Positions 8,989 through 13,937 of a stretch of DNA of 64,000 bases are shown one piece after another (the first letter of the stretch is position 1; each line of letters starts with the position of its first letter). The notes beneath the pieces are model-generated. The model did not search any database. It worked only from the letters and a program-made list of their open reading frames with translations, and had not been told where the DNA came from. Made by a program: the position numbers and the translations under genes. The stretch covers positions 2,852,001-2,916,000 of the forward strand of contig NZ_CP054143.1 in the NCBI RefSeq assembly GCF_013284055.1. Reading direction: 5' to 3'. This DNA is from Deefgea piscis. GTDB lineage: Bacteria > Pseudomonadota > Gammaproteobacteria > Burkholderiales > Chitinibacteraceae.

Positions 8989-10137
8989 ATGCAAAAGTCA
9001 AAAGCATTACTGCTGATCGCCGGGTTTTATTTTTGTTATTTTGCTTTTAACGGCCTGTTCTCTCCCTATTGGGGCTTGTATCTTGCCGAACTGTCGTTTC
9101 CTGCATGGCAAATCGGTATTCTGACGTCTCTGACGCAAATCAATCGAATTTATGCGCCAGCCCTATGGGGCTGGTTAGCTGATCGCAGTGGGCAACGGCA
9201 AAAAATATTACGTCTGGCGGGCGTGATGGGTTTGGTTTTTTTCTTGCCGCTACTGTTGACGCATTCGTTTTGGCCTTTATTGATTTCTGTGTGGATCGCG
9301 AGTTTTTTCTGGAGCTCGGCACTCCCCTTGGTTGAGGCGACGAGCATGACTTTGCTCGCCGGCAATAGCGGGGCGTATGCGCGACTACGCGTCTGGGGCT
9401 CAATTGGTTTTGTCGTTGCCGCTTTGCTGGCCGGCTATTTGATCGAAGCTTTCGGTGTTGGCGTGTTGCCAATGGCTGTAGTTTCCGTGATGGCCGGGCT
9501 GGCTATTTATTCTTTTTACGTGCCCGAAGCGCCTGCTCTGGTTAAAAATCAGCTAGCCAGCGTGAAATTTTTTGATGTTTTAGCCAAAACCGAAGTTAAA
9601 GCCTTATTGTTGGCGTGTTTTTTAATGGCGCTGGCCCACGGGGCTTATTACAGTTTTTATTCCATTTATATGGTGGAGCACGGTTATAGCAAGCGAGTTG
9701 TTGCTTGGTTATGGACTTTGGGGGTGATTGCTGAGATTGCGGTTTTCTGGTTGATGCCGTCGATTACGCAGCGCTTTAGCCTTAAAAAGATATTTTTATG
9801 GGGTTTGTTGCTGGCAGTATTGCGCTTTATGCTCATTGGCTTGGCAGCTGACTTTATTGTGCTTTTAATTGTGGCGCAATTGGCGCATGGCTTCACTTTT
9901 GGTAGCCATCATGCCGTGACGATGAGTTATATTCATCGTCATTTTTCTGGCGCGCATCAAGCCAAAGGGCAGGCATTAAATATTGCCGTGTCATTTGGTC
10001 TTGGTGGTAGCTTAGGTGGTATTTTGGCTGGCGTGCTGTGGCCGCAAGGCGGGGCGATGGTGTTTATGCTATCCGCTTGCATGGCGTTATTGGGGTTTGG
10101 TGTGGCTTGGGTCGGCATCAATAAAAATAATACTTAA
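8989..10137 (+). CDS. MFS transporter (LacY/HcaT-like)
   Basis: A 382-residue integral membrane protein with about 12 hydrophobic segments and the early loop WGWLADRSGQRQKILR, a version of the MFS loop 2-3 motif. The N-terminus (YFCYFAFNGLFSPYWGLYLAEL) resembles the 3-phenylpropionate permease/nucleoside-symporter-like group (HcaT-related). The substrate cannot be told from sequence. It stands alone between two structured intergenic regions. Confidence 0.8.
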   Translation: MQKSKALLLIAGFYFCYFAFNGLFSPYWGLYLAELSFPAWQIGILTSLTQINRIYAPALWGWLADRSGQRQKILRLAGVMGLVFFLPLLLTHSFWPLLISVWIASFFWSSALPLVEATSMTLLAGNSGAYARLRVWGSIGFVVAALLAGYLIEAFGVGVLPMAVVSVMAGLAIYSFYVPEAPALVKNQLASVKFFDVLAKTEVKALLLACFLMALAHGAYYSFYSIYMVEHGYSKRVVAWLWTLGVIAEIAVFWLMPSITQRFSLKKIFLWGLLLAVLRFMLIGLAADFIVLLIVAQLAHGFTFGSHHAVTMSYIHRHFSGAHQAKGQALNIAVSFGLGGSLGGILAGVLWPQGGAMVFMLSACMALLGFGVAWVGINKNNT

Positions 10138-10152
10138 TTTGCGCTTTATGGT

Positions 10153-10290
10153 TGCTTAGGCTTGATTTTGCCAAGCACCAAGGCGTTAAATTCAATCCTA
10201 GCATTGAGTGTTTAATATTCAATGCATAGAGGTATTGCCAGTGAGTGCTTACTGAGCATAGCCTCGCTTTAAATACATCAGTGTGAGGCT
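10153..10290 (+). promoter_or_regulatory. Structured leader with alternative hairpins before the DAHPS-like gene
   Basis: Three successive inverted repeats precede the start codon at 10294: TGCTTAGGC/GCCAAGCA (10153-10177, one bulge), GCATTGA/TCAATGC (10201-10225) and a long imperfect stem 10229-10245 with 10248-10265. The last part of that stem, AGCCTC (10260-10265), can instead pair with GAGGCT (10285-10290), which contains the GAGG ribosome-binding site 5 bases before the ATG. The two pairings exclude each other, so this is a plausible translational switch. No known riboswitch class was recognised. Confidence 0.4.
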
Positions 10291-10293
10291 TGC

Positions 10294-11310
10294 ATGATTA
10301 TTGTGATGAAGTTCAATGCCAGTGAAGCTGAGGTTGCAGCAGTCATTGCCTATATACGCAGCGCCGGTTTGACTGAACATGTTTCGCGGGGTGCGGAACT
10401 CGTGATTATTGGTGCCATTGGTGACGAAGACGCGCTCAATCCGGCGCGTTTTGAAATGCTCCCTGGCGTTGATCGGGTGTCTCGCGTGACCAAGCAGTAC
10501 CGTATCGTCGCACGCGATACCCATCCAGCGGGCTCGGTGGTTAAAATCCGTGGCATTCCTTTGGGTGGCCAGCAGATTCAAGTCTTTGCCGGTAGCAGTT
10601 CAATCGAAAATGCCGCGCAAATGGCTGCTTTGGCACAAGGCATTGTGGATTTGGGGTGTCCGTTTTTATGGGGCGATATCGCCCAAACGCTAGATGGTCC
10701 TTATCAATTGCAAGGCAATGAGCACGATAATTTGTCTTTGCTGCAGTCAGTGGCCAGCCAGTTTAAATTGCCCTTTGCTGCTGAATTAGTTGATTTGCAA
10801 ATGCTCGATGATTTGATGGCGCACGATGTGGATTTGATTCAAGTGGGCGCAGGGCAAATGCAAAATCGGATTTTACTCAAAGAATTAGGTCGGATTAATA
10901 AGCCGATTTTATTGCGGCGCGGTCATGCCGCAACACTGGCAGAATGGCTGATGGCAGCAGAATATATTGCGGCCGGTGGCAATCATCATATTGTTTTTTG
11001 TGAGCATGGCGCGCGCGCCTTGGGTAGTGAAGGGCGCAATGTATTCGACGTCGCAAGTATTGCATGGTTAAAGCAAGAGACGCATTTACCGGTGGTGGTG
11101 GACGCCAGCAGTGCGGCAGGTAAGTCTTGGCTGGTGCCATCTTTGGCGCAGGCGGCAGTCGCCGCAGGTGCCGATGGCATCTGGCTGGATGTACACCCTA
11201 ATCCGAATGCCGCTTGGCGCAATGCAGATCAGTCGCTTGATTTGTGCCAATTAACGACTTTGCTGTCGACCTTGCGCGCGATGGCTCCCGCGCTCAATCG
11301 TACGATTTAA
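10294..11310 (+). CDS. Degenerate DAHP synthase-like protein (class Ib, metal ligands lost)
   Basis: A 338-residue protein aligning end to end with class I-beta 3-deoxy-7-phosphoheptulonate synthases such as Thermotoga AroF: a ferredoxin/ACT-like domain (1-75) and a TIM barrel (about 85-335) with LIQVGAGQMQN, KPILLRRG, AAEYIAAGGN and AGADGIWLDVHPNP. All four usual metal ligands are replaced: Cys in AGPCS is Ser102, His in DPSH is Ser273, Glu in EVHP is Asp299 and Asp in SDG is Asn310. The KPRTS substrate loop is QTLDG (131-135), and the active-site ERG is EHG. It therefore probably lacks normal catalysis. It lies 19 bases before tyrA, so a regulatory or scaffold role in aromatic amino acid synthesis is possible. 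Automated annotation would likely call it aroF. Confidence 0.85.
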   Translation: MIIVMKFNASEAEVAAVIAYIRSAGLTEHVSRGAELVIIGAIGDEDALNPARFEMLPGVDRVSRVTKQYRIVARDTHPAGSVVKIRGIPLGGQQIQVFAGSSSIENAAQMAALAQGIVDLGCPFLWGDIAQTLDGPYQLQGNEHDNLSLLQSVASQFKLPFAAELVDLQMLDDLMAHDVDLIQVGAGQMQNRILLKELGRINKPILLRRGHAATLAEWLMAAEYIAAGGNHHIVFCEHGARALGSEGRNVFDVASIAWLKQETHLPVVVDASSAAGKSWLVPSLAQAAVAAGADGIWLDVHPNPNAAWRNADQSLDLCQLTTLLSTLRAMAPALNRTI

Positions 11311-11329
11311 ACTTTGGCGTTTTTATATT

Positions 11330-12211
11330 ATGCAGGCAGTAAAAAAATTGGTTTTACTGGGGACGGGTTTGATTTCTGGCTCGTTTGCCTTGGCATTAAA
11401 ACGCGCCCGTTTGGTTGAACACGTGGTTGGCGTTGGCCGAAATCTAGACAATCTTCAGCGTGCGCTCGATTTAAATGTGGTTGATGCCATCAGCGACGAT
11501 GCAGCGCATGCGGTTGTCGGTGCCGATTTGGTGTTTATTGGCACACCAGTTGGACAAATGGGCGCTTTAATGCAAAAAATCGCCCCTCATTTGTCTCGCG
11601 ATTGTATCGTGACCGATGGTGGCTCAACCAAGCAAGATGTCGCTGCTTTATATCAAGCTTATTTACCGCAGCAGTTGGCATACTGTGTACCAGGTCATCC
11701 AATTGCGGGTTCGGATTTATCGGGTGCCGCAGCCGCGCAATTTGGTTTGTATGAAGGGCGCCGCGTGGTATTAACGCCCTTGCCTGAATCGGATGCGGTG
11801 GTGATTGAACAAGTCCGAAATTGGTGGCTGGCCTGTGGCGCTCAGGTGTATCAAATGAGTGCTTTAGCGCATGATGAAATTTTTTCTTCAGTCAGCCATG
11901 TACCGCATTTGCTGTCTTTTGCGTATATGAATTCGGTGCTGGATCGCTACAATGCGGCTGAATGCTTGGATTTTGCTGCCAGTGGCTTTCGCGACTTTAC
12001 TCGCATTGCCGGTTCGCATCCGGATATGTGGCGTGATATTGCGCTGGCCAATCAAAGTGCCATTTTGAATGATTTACGCGCCAATATGCAGCAATTGCAG
12101 TCTTTAATCGAGTTGGTTGAATCGAGCGACGGTATCGCTTTAACGAATTACATTCAACGTGCAAGCTTGGCTCGAATTGAGTGGGGCAAGCCGTTAAAGG
12201 GTAAAAAATGA
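11330..12211 (+). CDS. tyrA: Prephenate dehydrogenase
   Basis: A 293-residue NAD(P)-dependent TyrA that oxidatively decarboxylates prephenate to 4-hydroxyphenylpyruvate for tyrosine. The Rossmann motif is VLLGTGLISGSFALAL (about 8-23), followed by DGGSTK, PGHPIAGSDLSGA and the helical dimerisation domain with SHVPHLLSFA. It ends without an ACT or chorismate mutase domain, so feedback control must come from elsewhere. It overlaps the next gene by four bases (ATGA). Confidence 0.94.
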   Translation: MQAVKKLVLLGTGLISGSFALALKRARLVEHVVGVGRNLDNLQRALDLNVVDAISDDAAHAVVGADLVFIGTPVGQMGALMQKIAPHLSRDCIVTDGGSTKQDVAALYQAYLPQQLAYCVPGHPIAGSDLSGAAAAQFGLYEGRRVVLTPLPESDAVVIEQVRNWWLACGAQVYQMSALAHDEIFSSVSHVPHLLSFAYMNSVLDRYNAAECLDFAASGFRDFTRIAGSHPDMWRDIALANQSAILNDLRANMQQLQSLIELVESSDGIALTNYIQRASLARIEWGKPLKGKK

Positions 12212-13197
12212 CTTATCAAGCAGCAGAGAATCGTTACGCCTCAATGCCTTATCGCCGCTGCGGTCATAGTGGCCTAAAGTTGCCCGCAATTTCTTTGGGA
12301 TTGTGGCATAACTTTGGCGATAACAAGCCCTTTGATAATAGTCGGGCGATGTTGTTACGCGCTTTTGATTTGGGGATTACGCATTTTGATTTGGCCAACA
12401 ATTATGGCCCACGTCCCGGTGCCGCCGAAGAAACCTTTGGCCGAGTTTTAAAGCAAGATTTACGCGCTTATCGTGACGAAATGATTGTAAGTACTAAGGC
12501 GGGCTGGGAGATGTGGCCTGGCCCTTATGGTGAATGGGGTAGTCGCAAATATTTAATGGCGAGTTTGGATCAGAGCTTGCAGCGTATGGGCTTAGAGTAT
12601 GTCGACATTTTTTATTCGCATCGACCAGACCCCGAAACGCCTATGGCAGAAACTATGGGCGCGTTAGATGCGATCGTGCGTCAAGGTAAGGCACTTTATG
12701 TCGGTATTTCATCTTATTCGCCAGCGCAAACTTTAGAAGCCGCCAGTATTTTACAAGCGCTGGGTACACCTTGCCTAATTCATCAGCCTAAATACTCAAT
12801 GTTCGAGCGTGAAATTGAACAAGGATTAACACAAGTGCTCAGTGACTCAGGAATAGGCAGCATTGCATTCTGTCCTTTAGCGCAAGGCTTGTTAACCAGC
12901 CGATATTTGAATGACATTCCTGCTGATTCTAGGGCTGCTGCACTCGATAATCATTTTCTAAATGGCGATGCGGTGACGCCGCGTCTGATGCAATTGCGCC
13001 AGTTGAATGACTTGGCCTTGCAACGTGGGCAAACCTTGGCGCAAATGGCTTTGGCATGGGCATTGCTCACGGTCACTTCCGTCATTATTGGCGCGAGTCG
13101 TGTTTCGCAGTTAGAAGAAAACGTCGGAGCGATTGCTAATTTAGCTTTTTCAGCGGCTGAATTGCAGGAAATAGAGCGCATTTTAGCGTCGACGTAA
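12208..13197 (+). CDS. Aldo/keto reductase, YghZ-type (L-glyceraldehyde 3-phosphate reductase)
   Basis: A 329-residue AKR14-like (YghZ/Gpr) oxidoreductase. Catalytic residues are visible in order: Asp and Tyr in FDLANNYGPRPG, Lys in STKAGW and His in YSHRPDPETP. The C-terminal NADPH-binding IIGASRVSQLEENVGA is present. E. coli YghZ reduces L-glyceraldehyde 3-phosphate and detoxifies aldehydes such as methylglyoxal. It is translationally coupled to tyrA by an ATGA overlap, with no obvious pathway link. Confidence 0.88.
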   Translation: MTYQAAENRYASMPYRRCGHSGLKLPAISLGLWHNFGDNKPFDNSRAMLLRAFDLGITHFDLANNYGPRPGAAEETFGRVLKQDLRAYRDEMIVSTKAGWEMWPGPYGEWGSRKYLMASLDQSLQRMGLEYVDIFYSHRPDPETPMAETMGALDAIVRQGKALYVGISSYSPAQTLEAASILQALGTPCLIHQPKYSMFEREIEQGLTQVLSDSGIGSIAFCPLAQGLLTSRYLNDIPADSRAAALDNHFLNGDAVTPRLMQLRQLNDLALQRGQTLAQMALAWALLTVTSVIIGASRVSQLEENVGAIANLAFSAAELQEIERILAST

Positions 13198-13220
13198 GGT
13201 GTAGCGAGTCCGTATAATTA

Positions 13221-13250
13221 AAAAACCAGCGTGTTCATCGCTGGTTTTTT
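13221..13250 (+). terminator. Intrinsic terminator before cmk
   Basis: AAAAACCAGCG (13221-13231) pairs with CGCTGG plus T-run (13239-13250) around a 7-base loop. It ends the tyrA-aldo/keto reductase unit. A TATAAT lies just upstream at 13213-13218. Confidence 0.85.
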
Positions 13251-13265
13251 AATTTAAGGAACAAT

Positions 13266-13937
13266 ATGAATCATTTTCCAGTGATTGCAATTGATGGCCC
13301 ATCCGCATCAGGCAAGGGTACGGTCGCGCAAAAGGTCGCCAATCAACTTGGTTTTGCTTATCTTGATTCGGGGGCGTTGTATCGCCTAACGGCATTGGCC
13401 GCGCAACGCGCAGGAGTGTTGTGGACTGATGAGGCGGCGGTGGCTGAGTTGGCGGCGAAACTGGATGTGGTCTTTGTTGGTGAGTCTATTTTGTTGTCGG
13501 GCGACGACGTTTCAGTCGAGATTCGTTCGGAATTGATTGGCTCTGGTGCTTCCCAAGTTGCTGCCTTGCCTGCAGTCCGCGTGGCCTTATTGCAAAGACA
13601 GCGTGCGTTTTCTGAGAAAGAGGGGCTGGTCGCCGATGGACGAGATATGGCCTCGGTCGTTTTTCCTCATGCGCAATTAAAAATCTTTTTATCCGCAACA
13701 CCTGAAGTTCGTGCGCAGCGCCGATTTAAGCAATTACTTGCTCGCAACGAGCCGGCCGATTTAGCGGTGATTACTGCTGATTTGCAAGCAAGAGATGAGC
13801 GGGATCGTTTACGAAGTGTTGCGCCGCTAGTTCAAGCTGCGGATGCTTACTTACTAGAAACGTCCAATTTATCGATTGAAGCGGCGGTGAATCAAGTCTT
13901 GCTTTGGTGGCGTGATAAATCGACTAAAACGCTCTAA
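13266..13937 (+). CDS. cmk: Cytidylate kinase
   Basis: A 223-residue CMP/dCMP kinase with the P-loop IAIDGPSASGKGT (about 7-19), YLDSGALYR, the substrate-binding DGRDMASVVFP and a late RDERDRLRSVAPL segment. Length fits the family. It is immediately upstream of rpsA, the classical order in proteobacteria, and a good promoter for rpsA lies in the gap. Confidence 0.97.
   Translation: MNHFPVIAIDGPSASGKGTVAQKVANQLGFAYLDSGALYRLTALAAQRAGVLWTDEAAVAELAAKLDVVFVGESILLSGDDVSVEIRSELIGSGASQVAALPAVRVALLQRQRAFSEKEGLVADGRDMASVVFPHAQLKIFLSATPEVRAQRRFKQLLARNEPADLAVITADLQARDERDRLRSVAPLVQAADAYLLETSNLSIEAAVNQVLLWWRDKSTKTL

Follow-up and report, generated by a model that had tools for sequence, protein, structure and literature searches.

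Loss of catalytic residues in a class I-beta DAHP synthase-like protein of Deefgea piscis and its possible retention as a regulator

In the DAHP synthase of Thermotoga maritima, the tyrosine site has been described as being formed by two ferredoxin-like (FXD-type) domains (accessible part of PMC5493349). A ligand at the regulatory domain, either phenylalanine or tyrosine, has been described as restricting access to the active site (accessible part of PMC5526877). A related protein is encoded in the window, which is the whole stretch of 64,000 nucleotides of Deefgea piscis DNA that was analysed. It resembles the T. maritima enzyme (PDB 1rzm, 1vr6, 3pg9) in its two-domain architecture over the full length, in its fold (rank 1 in Foldseek) and in an FXD signature with H29 and S31. 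It is unlike that enzyme in that its metal ligands and the examined residues of the PEP/E4P type are replaced. The PDB title of 4grs names a chimeric DAH7PS, which we take to carry an FXD-type domain as a transferable tyrosine switch.

Degenerate or combined forms of DAHP synthase are known from other bacteria. In Shewanella, a degenerate I-beta DAHP synthase domain is fused to PheA and was termed a pseudogene in 2005 (accessible part of PMC1173090). This is the nearest published precedent found, since it too is a degenerate I-beta DAHP synthase kept in an aromatic-pathway setting. In the part of that source that was accessible, however, the Shewanella domain is fused and called a pseudogene, whereas the Deefgea gene is free-standing and open, has the FXD domain and has relatives in which activity appears to have been lost repeatedly. 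The DAHP synthases of Bacillus and Listeria have a chorismate mutase-like regulatory domain (accessible parts of PMC5493349 and PMC5526877). Together with the complex of DAHP synthase and chorismate mutase in Mycobacterium tuberculosis, they exemplify, as far as the same partial sources go, aromatic-pathway enzymes that serve as mutual allosteric modules. The DAHP synthase in those systems, by the same accounts, is the working enzyme, whereas in Deefgea it would be the part without catalysis. HisZ, an inactive HisRS-like protein, is a regulatory subunit of ATP phosphoribosyltransferase with a known partner. As a dead enzyme-like protein turned regulatory subunit in amino acid synthesis it offers a model of how the Deefgea protein might work, but the two are not homologous. 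In non-metallo synthases of the KDO8P type, the Cys is replaced by Asn and the other catalytic residues are kept, whereas the Deefgea copy has Ser at the Cys position and other catalytic residues altered as well. Among titles and abstract openings of the open-licence literature, which are weak evidence of absence, no description of a free-standing, selected I-beta pseudoenzyme or inactive DAHP synthase was found, and none on this topic in the literature on Deefgea, Iodobacter or Chitinibacteraceae.

The former active site of the window's copy

Homology to DAHP synthases extends over both domains of the protein (Table 1). Residues 1-335 of the 338 were aligned with T. maritima 1rzm by phmmer. 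The AlphaFold2 model preserved the two-domain fold (mean pLDDT 86.4), its weakest blocks being residues 131-140 (mean 53) and 241-250 (mean 54), and 1rzm was its top solved Foldseek match (TM 0.77). At the positions that we take to be the Cys/His/Glu/Asp metal ligands of T. maritima-type DAHP synthases, the phmmer alignment places S102 for C102, S273 for H272, D299 for E298 and N310 for D309. In the same alignment KPRTS has become QTLDG (131-135) and CERG has become CEHG. Other changes are R187G in the GARN motif, the conservative K208R in the LKRG motif, and R126W. A first-pass annotation of this DNA had claimed the same four ligand replacements, the same changes of KPRTS and of ERG, and a barrel framework and N-terminal domain kept at full length. 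The 1rzm alignment bears all of this out, and the Pfam matches agree on the last point.

Table 1. Coordinates, within the window, of the DAHP synthase-like gene, its altered positions and its neighbours
Feature	Coordinates	Strand	Basis or remark
MFS transporter gene, upstream	8989..10137	+	PF12832; frequent family neighbour, not needed for the explanation
Class I-beta DAHP synthase-like protein, very probably a pseudoenzyme, 338 aa	10294..11310	+	ATG start, open frame; full-length Pfam and PDB-sequence matches; AlphaFold2 model
N-terminal ferredoxin-like (FXD / ACT-like) regulatory domain, residues 1-67	10294..10494	+	PF18152 DAHP_snth_FXD 1-67 (1.4e-22)
H29-V30-S31, putative tyrosine site	10378..10386	+	1rzm alignment; H29 and S31 kept in 24/24 ligand-losing copies
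(beta/alpha)8 barrel, predicted to lack a working active site, residues 92-338	10567..11307	+	PF00793 DAHP_synth_1 92-332 (4.6e-44); strand/helix pattern of the model
S102 for Cys metal ligand	10597..10599	+	1rzm alignment, family comparison
Q131-G135 (QTLDG) for KPRTS	10684..10698	+	1rzm alignment, AlphaFold2 model; one of the model's least confident stretches
G187 for Arg of GARN	10852..10854	+	1rzm alignment
R208 for Lys of LKRG	10915..10917	+	1rzm alignment
H238 for Arg of CERG	11005..11007	+	1rzm alignment
S273 for His metal ligand	11110..11112	+	1rzm alignment, family comparison
D299 for Glu metal ligand	11188..11190	+	1rzm alignment; D in all 16 Deefgea and Iodobacter copies
N310 for Asp metal ligand	11221..11223	+	1rzm alignment, family comparison
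tyrA, prephenate dehydrogenase, no ACT domain found	11330..12211	+	PF02153 and PF20463; 19 bases downstream, same strand

Ten active-site positions were compared with those of 44 intact relatives, namely the four ligands and K131, R133, T134, R187, K208 and R238 (window numbering). Their roles were presumed by analogy with known DAHP synthases; position 187 is taken to be of the substrate-phosphate type, analogous to E. coli AroG R165, and position 208 to be the analogue of AroG K186. The window's copy keeps none of the four metal ligands and none of the six other positions (KPRTS loop, Arg/Lys of PEP/E4P type). Every one of the four closest Deefgea copies is altered at all ten positions, 4/4 ligands included, and each of the other three at nine of the ten, with three or four ligands. 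In the barrel, 120 columns are invariant in the 44 intact relatives; 34 of them are altered in all four close Deefgea copies, and these include all 10 active-site columns (hypergeometric 1.1e-6). Judged from these replacements, the window's protein very probably has no DAHP synthase activity. Sequencing error was ruled out as the cause of the lost site, which is common to 7/7 Deefgea genomes.

The protein also scores under both NCBIfam cut-offs for DAHP synthase (PRK08673, 319.6 against 335; TIGR01361, 241 against 267.75), for which three intact relatives score 457-471 and 358-371. Two copies counted as dead, one of Iodobacter (L060) and that of genome G074 (L108), clear at least one of these cut-offs, so that automatic annotation, and metabolic models with it, would list an absent enzyme.

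Dead copies in related bacteria

All 43 Chitinibacteraceae genomes examined carry the gene without an internal stop. The Cys/His/Glu/Asp (C/H/E/D) set and KPRTS are present in all 27 genomes outside Deefgea and Iodobacter. In Deefgea, the copy is open in 7/7 genomes and three or four ligands are replaced in each. The set S102/S273/D299/N310 occurs in three of the seven, and a fourth has S102/N273/D299/N310. The remaining three, the second half of the genus, have H or R102, H or N273 (two keep the His), D299 and F, G or Y310, and share a deletion of 7 residues following CE-x-x. Ser/Ser/Asp/Asn, which the first-pass annotation had proposed to look for as a clade trait, is thus confined to part of the genus, and the former site differs between its halves. 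The same annotation had held homologues of this clade with restored ligands to be evidence against its proposal. Homologues with ligands occur outside Deefgea, but no complete ligand set was found inside the genus, the pattern expected of an enzyme that lost its function in the Deefgea lineage. Seven residues (R126W, I161F, F192R, V198L, K208R, T254A, E299D) are common to all seven Deefgea copies and absent from the 44 intact copies, so that inactivation may already have been under way when the genus divided. In Iodobacter, 9/9 copies are open and have Y102/D273/D299/A310, a shortened catalytic loop and CEHG. Among residues missing from the 44 intact copies, only E299D is common to all 16 Deefgea and Iodobacter copies.

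The losses in Deefgea and Iodobacter look independent, because a five-marker species tree and a tree of the N-terminal part of the protein separate the two genera. The species tree, of 28 family genomes with 6 Deefgea (G304 left out), places Deefgea with Chitinibacter (100/100), apart from Iodobacter. In the tree from residues 1-91, Deefgea lies close to Chitinibacter and Chitinilyticum (86/94), and Iodobacter groups with Silvimonas (94/92). Full-length gene trees group Deefgea weakly with Iodobacter (72/91; 50/90), and an AU test on the full-length data did not reject Deefgea with Chitinibacter (p 0.32). A single loss common to both genera was rejected on the first two trees and the AU result, and the full-length grouping was read as long-branch attraction, although transfer between the two genera is conceivable.

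The survey was extended to 300 genomes of the GTDB order. It was based on 97 examined matches including the query; many lower-scoring matches and genomes G222, G273, G127, G199, G229 and G262 fall outside this count. The C/H/E/D set is present in 89 of the 97. The other eight matches belong to two Deefgea, to four members of genus g81 of family f27, to G074 of the same family (P/Q/N/E) and to G130 of family f44. In G074, 7/10 active-site positions and 4/4 ligands are altered. In genus g50 of family f44, a relic is present in three genomes (G130, G262, G292) with 9-10 of the 10 active-site positions altered; its barrel is only 0.24-0.25 identical to two intact sets, and its FXD domain 0.49-0.58. 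A further genome of g50, G044, had no match in the order survey and was not among the genomes with an FXD match. These relics (L321 7436-8353, L322, L323) have a shortened, near-unrecognisable barrel that is yet 0.72 conserved within the genus, and a conserved FXD domain. The relic of G130 sits between AsmA-like and Dus genes.

Four lineages were counted as dead (Deefgea, Iodobacter, that of G074, and f44 g50). The losses led by Cys, in f27 g81 and Crenobacter oryzisoli, were left out of this count since they may still be active. In g81, which includes an Aquitalea MAG, Cys is replaced by Ala in four copies and Glu by Asp in three of these; Crenobacter oryzisoli has S/H/D/D. The Cys-losing I-beta copies (L139 4688-5701 of Crenobacter oryzisoli; L104/L155 of Aquitalea; L034, L102, L103), some of which also have Glu to Asp, keep the His, the Asp and the loop Lys and Arg. 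It is possible, from these residues, that they are metal-independent DAHP synthases or early stages of loss. Of the 120 barrel positions, 22-34 are altered throughout in each Deefgea half, in Iodobacter and in G074, 74 in f44 and 3 in g81. Active-site positions are enriched among the altered ones in the first four of these groups (p 1e-6 to 5e-4), borderline in f44 (0.05) and not in g81 (0.23).

Constraint on the sensor domain and the barrel

The window's copy retains the FXD fold, the putative tyrosine-site residues H29 and S31, and 16/16 FXD positions that are invariant in the 44 intact relatives. Taken singly, the ligand-losing copies have 0 to 2 of these 16 altered (I2M in one Deefgea; A41V in all Iodobacter; G58 in two f44 copies and K67 in all three). 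We take H29 and S31 to match the tyrosine-contact residues of T. maritima DAHP synthase. His29 is not universal even among enzymes, being Asn in 53 of 155 rows.

Selection was estimated as dN/dS by the Nei-Gojobori method with our own script, a simple counting approach in which many deep pairs are saturated. For the barrel, dN/dS was 0.07-0.10 among the four close Deefgea, 0.15-0.19 in divergent Deefgea pairs with a computable dS, 0.045-0.056 in Iodobacter and 0.02-0.13 in intact genera. The linker reached 0.47 in divergent pairs. One outlier is the FXD value of 0.445 in the near pair G302-G304, where dS is as low as 0.06. When substitutions alone were simulated without selection to 0.35 per site, which is close to the dS of the closest pair, 0/2000 copies remained without a stop. 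The Deefgea and Iodobacter copies are under purifying selection, with dN/dS well below 1, and in Deefgea this selection is weaker than in most intact genera. The first-pass annotation had read loss of catalysis without loss of the gene as selection for a non-catalytic role. The low dN/dS, the open frames in 7/7 Deefgea and 9/9 Iodobacter and the preserved FXD domain agree with it.

The two domains differ in how far they have changed. Comparing the two Deefgea halves gives FXD/barrel identities of 0.76/0.51; the second half by itself gives 0.84/0.61, and Iodobacter 0.94/0.89. The corresponding values are 0.62/0.88 for Chitinibacter-Silvimonas, 0.80/0.91 for Andreprevotia and Chitiniphilus and 0.78/0.92 for family f21, all intact. 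In a column bootstrap, the FXD minus barrel difference excludes zero between the Deefgea halves (0.15..0.35), within the second half (0.13..0.31) and, narrowly, in Iodobacter (0.01..0.10), and it is negative in all seven intact comparisons. The contrast is missing within the first Deefgea half (half A, 0.94/0.93) and within f44 (bootstrap difference -0.00). The interval for half A against Chitinibacter touches zero (-0.00..0.24), Iodobacter against Chitinibacter is 0.63/0.66, and two intact sets have no barrel excess (Chitinibacter 0.93/0.93; f27 g33 0.99/0.97). FXD identity between Deefgea and Chitinibacter is 0.67, against 0.62-0.66 between intact genera. By these identities, the FXD domain holds an enzyme-like constraint between lineages while the barrel drifts; in most intact comparisons it is the barrel that is better conserved. 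The Deefgea barrel evolves fast and with indels. As a rough measure, from branch lengths under different models, the whole-protein distance G000-G054 is about 8x the marker-tree distance, against 0.75x for an intact Chitinibacter pair. Partial relaxation would also fit this rate. The lineages can be read as a natural series that begins with a working enzyme, continues with loss of the metal site and ends with a wrecked barrel, the regulatory domain surviving longer than the catalytic domain.

Genomic setting and possible role

In the family loci compared, pgsA-(MFS)-DAHPS-tyrA-cmk-rpsA is the common gene order, whether the DAHP synthase is alive or dead. TyrA had been named as one possible partner in the first-pass annotation. 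The loci do not support it as the indicated one, since tyrA follows intact and dead copies alike, and pheA (CM-PDT-ACT) is nearby instead at two ligand-losing loci of f27 (G253, G074) and at that of Crenobacter oryzisoli. The aromatic setting gives TyrA no special place among the candidates. No terminator-like site was found between the gene and tyrA in a scan that did not rise above chance, with 5 promoter-like sites where 5.0 were expected and 2 terminator-like sites where 5.9 were expected. No RNA element was found in 9000-13500 at Rfam gathering thresholds. A PheA-DAHPS fusion was considered as a clue to the partner and rejected, as three large PDT open frames that were read have no DAHP synthase part (a fourth, in G411, of 520 aa, is outside these three).

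Separate intact DAHP synthases, which the first reading had proposed to look for, were found in the source genome. It encodes two intact enzymes of class I-alpha, at C1:1148483-1149364 and C1:1258386-1259270, along with two KDO8P synthases. Class I-alpha copies were read in 28 of the 43 family genomes, made up of every Deefgea (7), every Iodobacter (9) and 12 others, along with 13 from other families, and C/H/E/D is present in all. At the position of E. coli AroG Ser211, which we take to be the Phe/Tyr switch, every copy read has Ser except the second Deefgea copy, which has Gly in 7/7 genomes. This second copy (L002; G000 C1:1258386-1259270) is present in all seven Deefgea, and its best PDB match is 6agm, a Tyr-sensitive DAHP synthase. 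In the family census a second I-alpha row is found for the 7 Deefgea and for three genomes of genus g137; the two g137 copies that were read carry Ser. The nearest relatives of the second Deefgea copy in the class sample, up to 69% identical, are in other orders, which hints at horizontal gain, although in that sample the order itself is represented by just two further genomes (57%). This Tyr-type enzyme may have replaced the old I-beta enzyme in Deefgea. Iodobacter has no second I-alpha copy in the family census and no type II DAHP synthase in a PF01474 search of the 43 family genomes. As no such replacement enzyme is present there, the Iodobacter dead copy is the better case for a retained regulatory role.

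We suggest, with a probability of about 0.5, that the dead class I-beta DAHP synthase is kept as a tyrosine-responsive, non-catalytic regulator of the aromatic amino acid pathway. A regulator is suggested because the site was lost but the sensor kept, apparently separately in several related bacteria. A response to tyrosine is favoured because the kept part is the aromatic sensor of the T. maritima enzyme and because H29 and S31 persist in all 24 ligand-losing copies. The sequences themselves show that family relatives encode normal-looking I-beta DAHP synthases with the same gene neighbours, that Deefgea has lost residues of the metal and substrate types although purifying selection still acts on fold and FXD domain, and that intact class I-alpha enzymes are present, including the extra Tyr-type copy in all seven genomes. 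On the proposed reading, the FXD domains would still pair and bind tyrosine, and the movement driven by the ligand would go to another protein (class I-alpha DAHP synthase, PheA or TyrA) and not to the protein's own active site. A wider and distinctly more tentative proposal is that in Neisseriales and their kin the I-beta DAHP synthase has repeatedly, in at least four lineages, turned into a free-standing tyrosine-feedback subunit. In such a subunit the FXD domain would read tyrosine and the dead barrel would dock on a Phe-type I-alpha DAHP synthase, PheA or TyrA for tyrosine control in trans. If the tyrosine-subunit reading is true, allosteric control can detach from its enzyme and act in trans, in a form accessible to ordinary biochemistry.

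Could the protein regulate or scaffold without sensing tyrosine? Its barrel or FXD surface might hold pathway enzymes together or bind another ligand, and the fold kept in the model and the purifying selection on the barrel fit such a role. The DAHP synthase of M. tuberculosis provides a parallel, as it activates chorismate mutase by complex formation (accessible part of PMC5493349). The persistence of H29 and S31 in every ligand-losing copy goes beyond the needs of a pure scaffold if these residues are tyrosine contacts, as we assume, and we consider this role unlikely. Slow decay of a redundant enzyme drifting to loss, with residual selection for expression coupling with tyrA or against misfolding, is rather unlikely too. 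The fast, indel-bearing barrel of Deefgea speaks for it, as do the genome of f44 g50 without a match and the Tyr-type second I-alpha enzyme, which would make the old one redundant in all seven Deefgea. However, Iodobacter has no second I-alpha copy and still keeps the dead gene open in 9/9 genomes, the FXD domain is at an enzyme-like constraint (0.67 against 0.62-0.66), and barrel dN/dS is about 0.1 even between near species.

Enzymatic explanations fare less well. A new chemistry in the old barrel would account for the selection on the barrel and for a pocket that varies little or not at all among the four close Deefgea and among the nine Iodobacter. One shared new chemistry is disfavoured because the former active site differs between the Deefgea halves and again in Iodobacter, with only E299D, of the residues missing from intact copies, in all 16. 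The model, moreover, has some of its lowest confidence in the former catalytic loop. We regard a new chemistry as quite improbable. Activity as a DAHP synthase without metal, as in non-metallo KDO8P synthases, has relatives within the superfamily (PDB title of 2nxh). It is a reasonable reading for the copies that lost only Cys, with or without Glu to Asp (f27 g81 with Aquitalea; Crenobacter oryzisoli), in which the loop Lys, the Arg and the His are kept. For the Deefgea copy, which is also altered at the PEP-/E4P-type positions K131, R133, T134, R187, K208 and R238, it is very improbable. A type II DAHP synthase was rejected as the true enzyme, since PF01474 matches only 2 of the 43 family genomes, neither of them Deefgea or Iodobacter.

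Several further genes were seen at these loci and genomes. The two type II matches (G177:C25:30669-31643 and G208:C20:25154-26131) are both in the Chitiniphilus genus. The two KDO8P synthases of the source genome lie at C1:2948487-2949272 and C1:1037725-1038510 (L003, L004), with the census pointing to one in most relatives. Between the DAHP synthase gene and tyrA, an Iodobacter and a Chitinibacter locus (L094 10025-10678, L077 10027-10704) have a small gene that by eye looks META/HslJ-like and is absent from the Deefgea locus.
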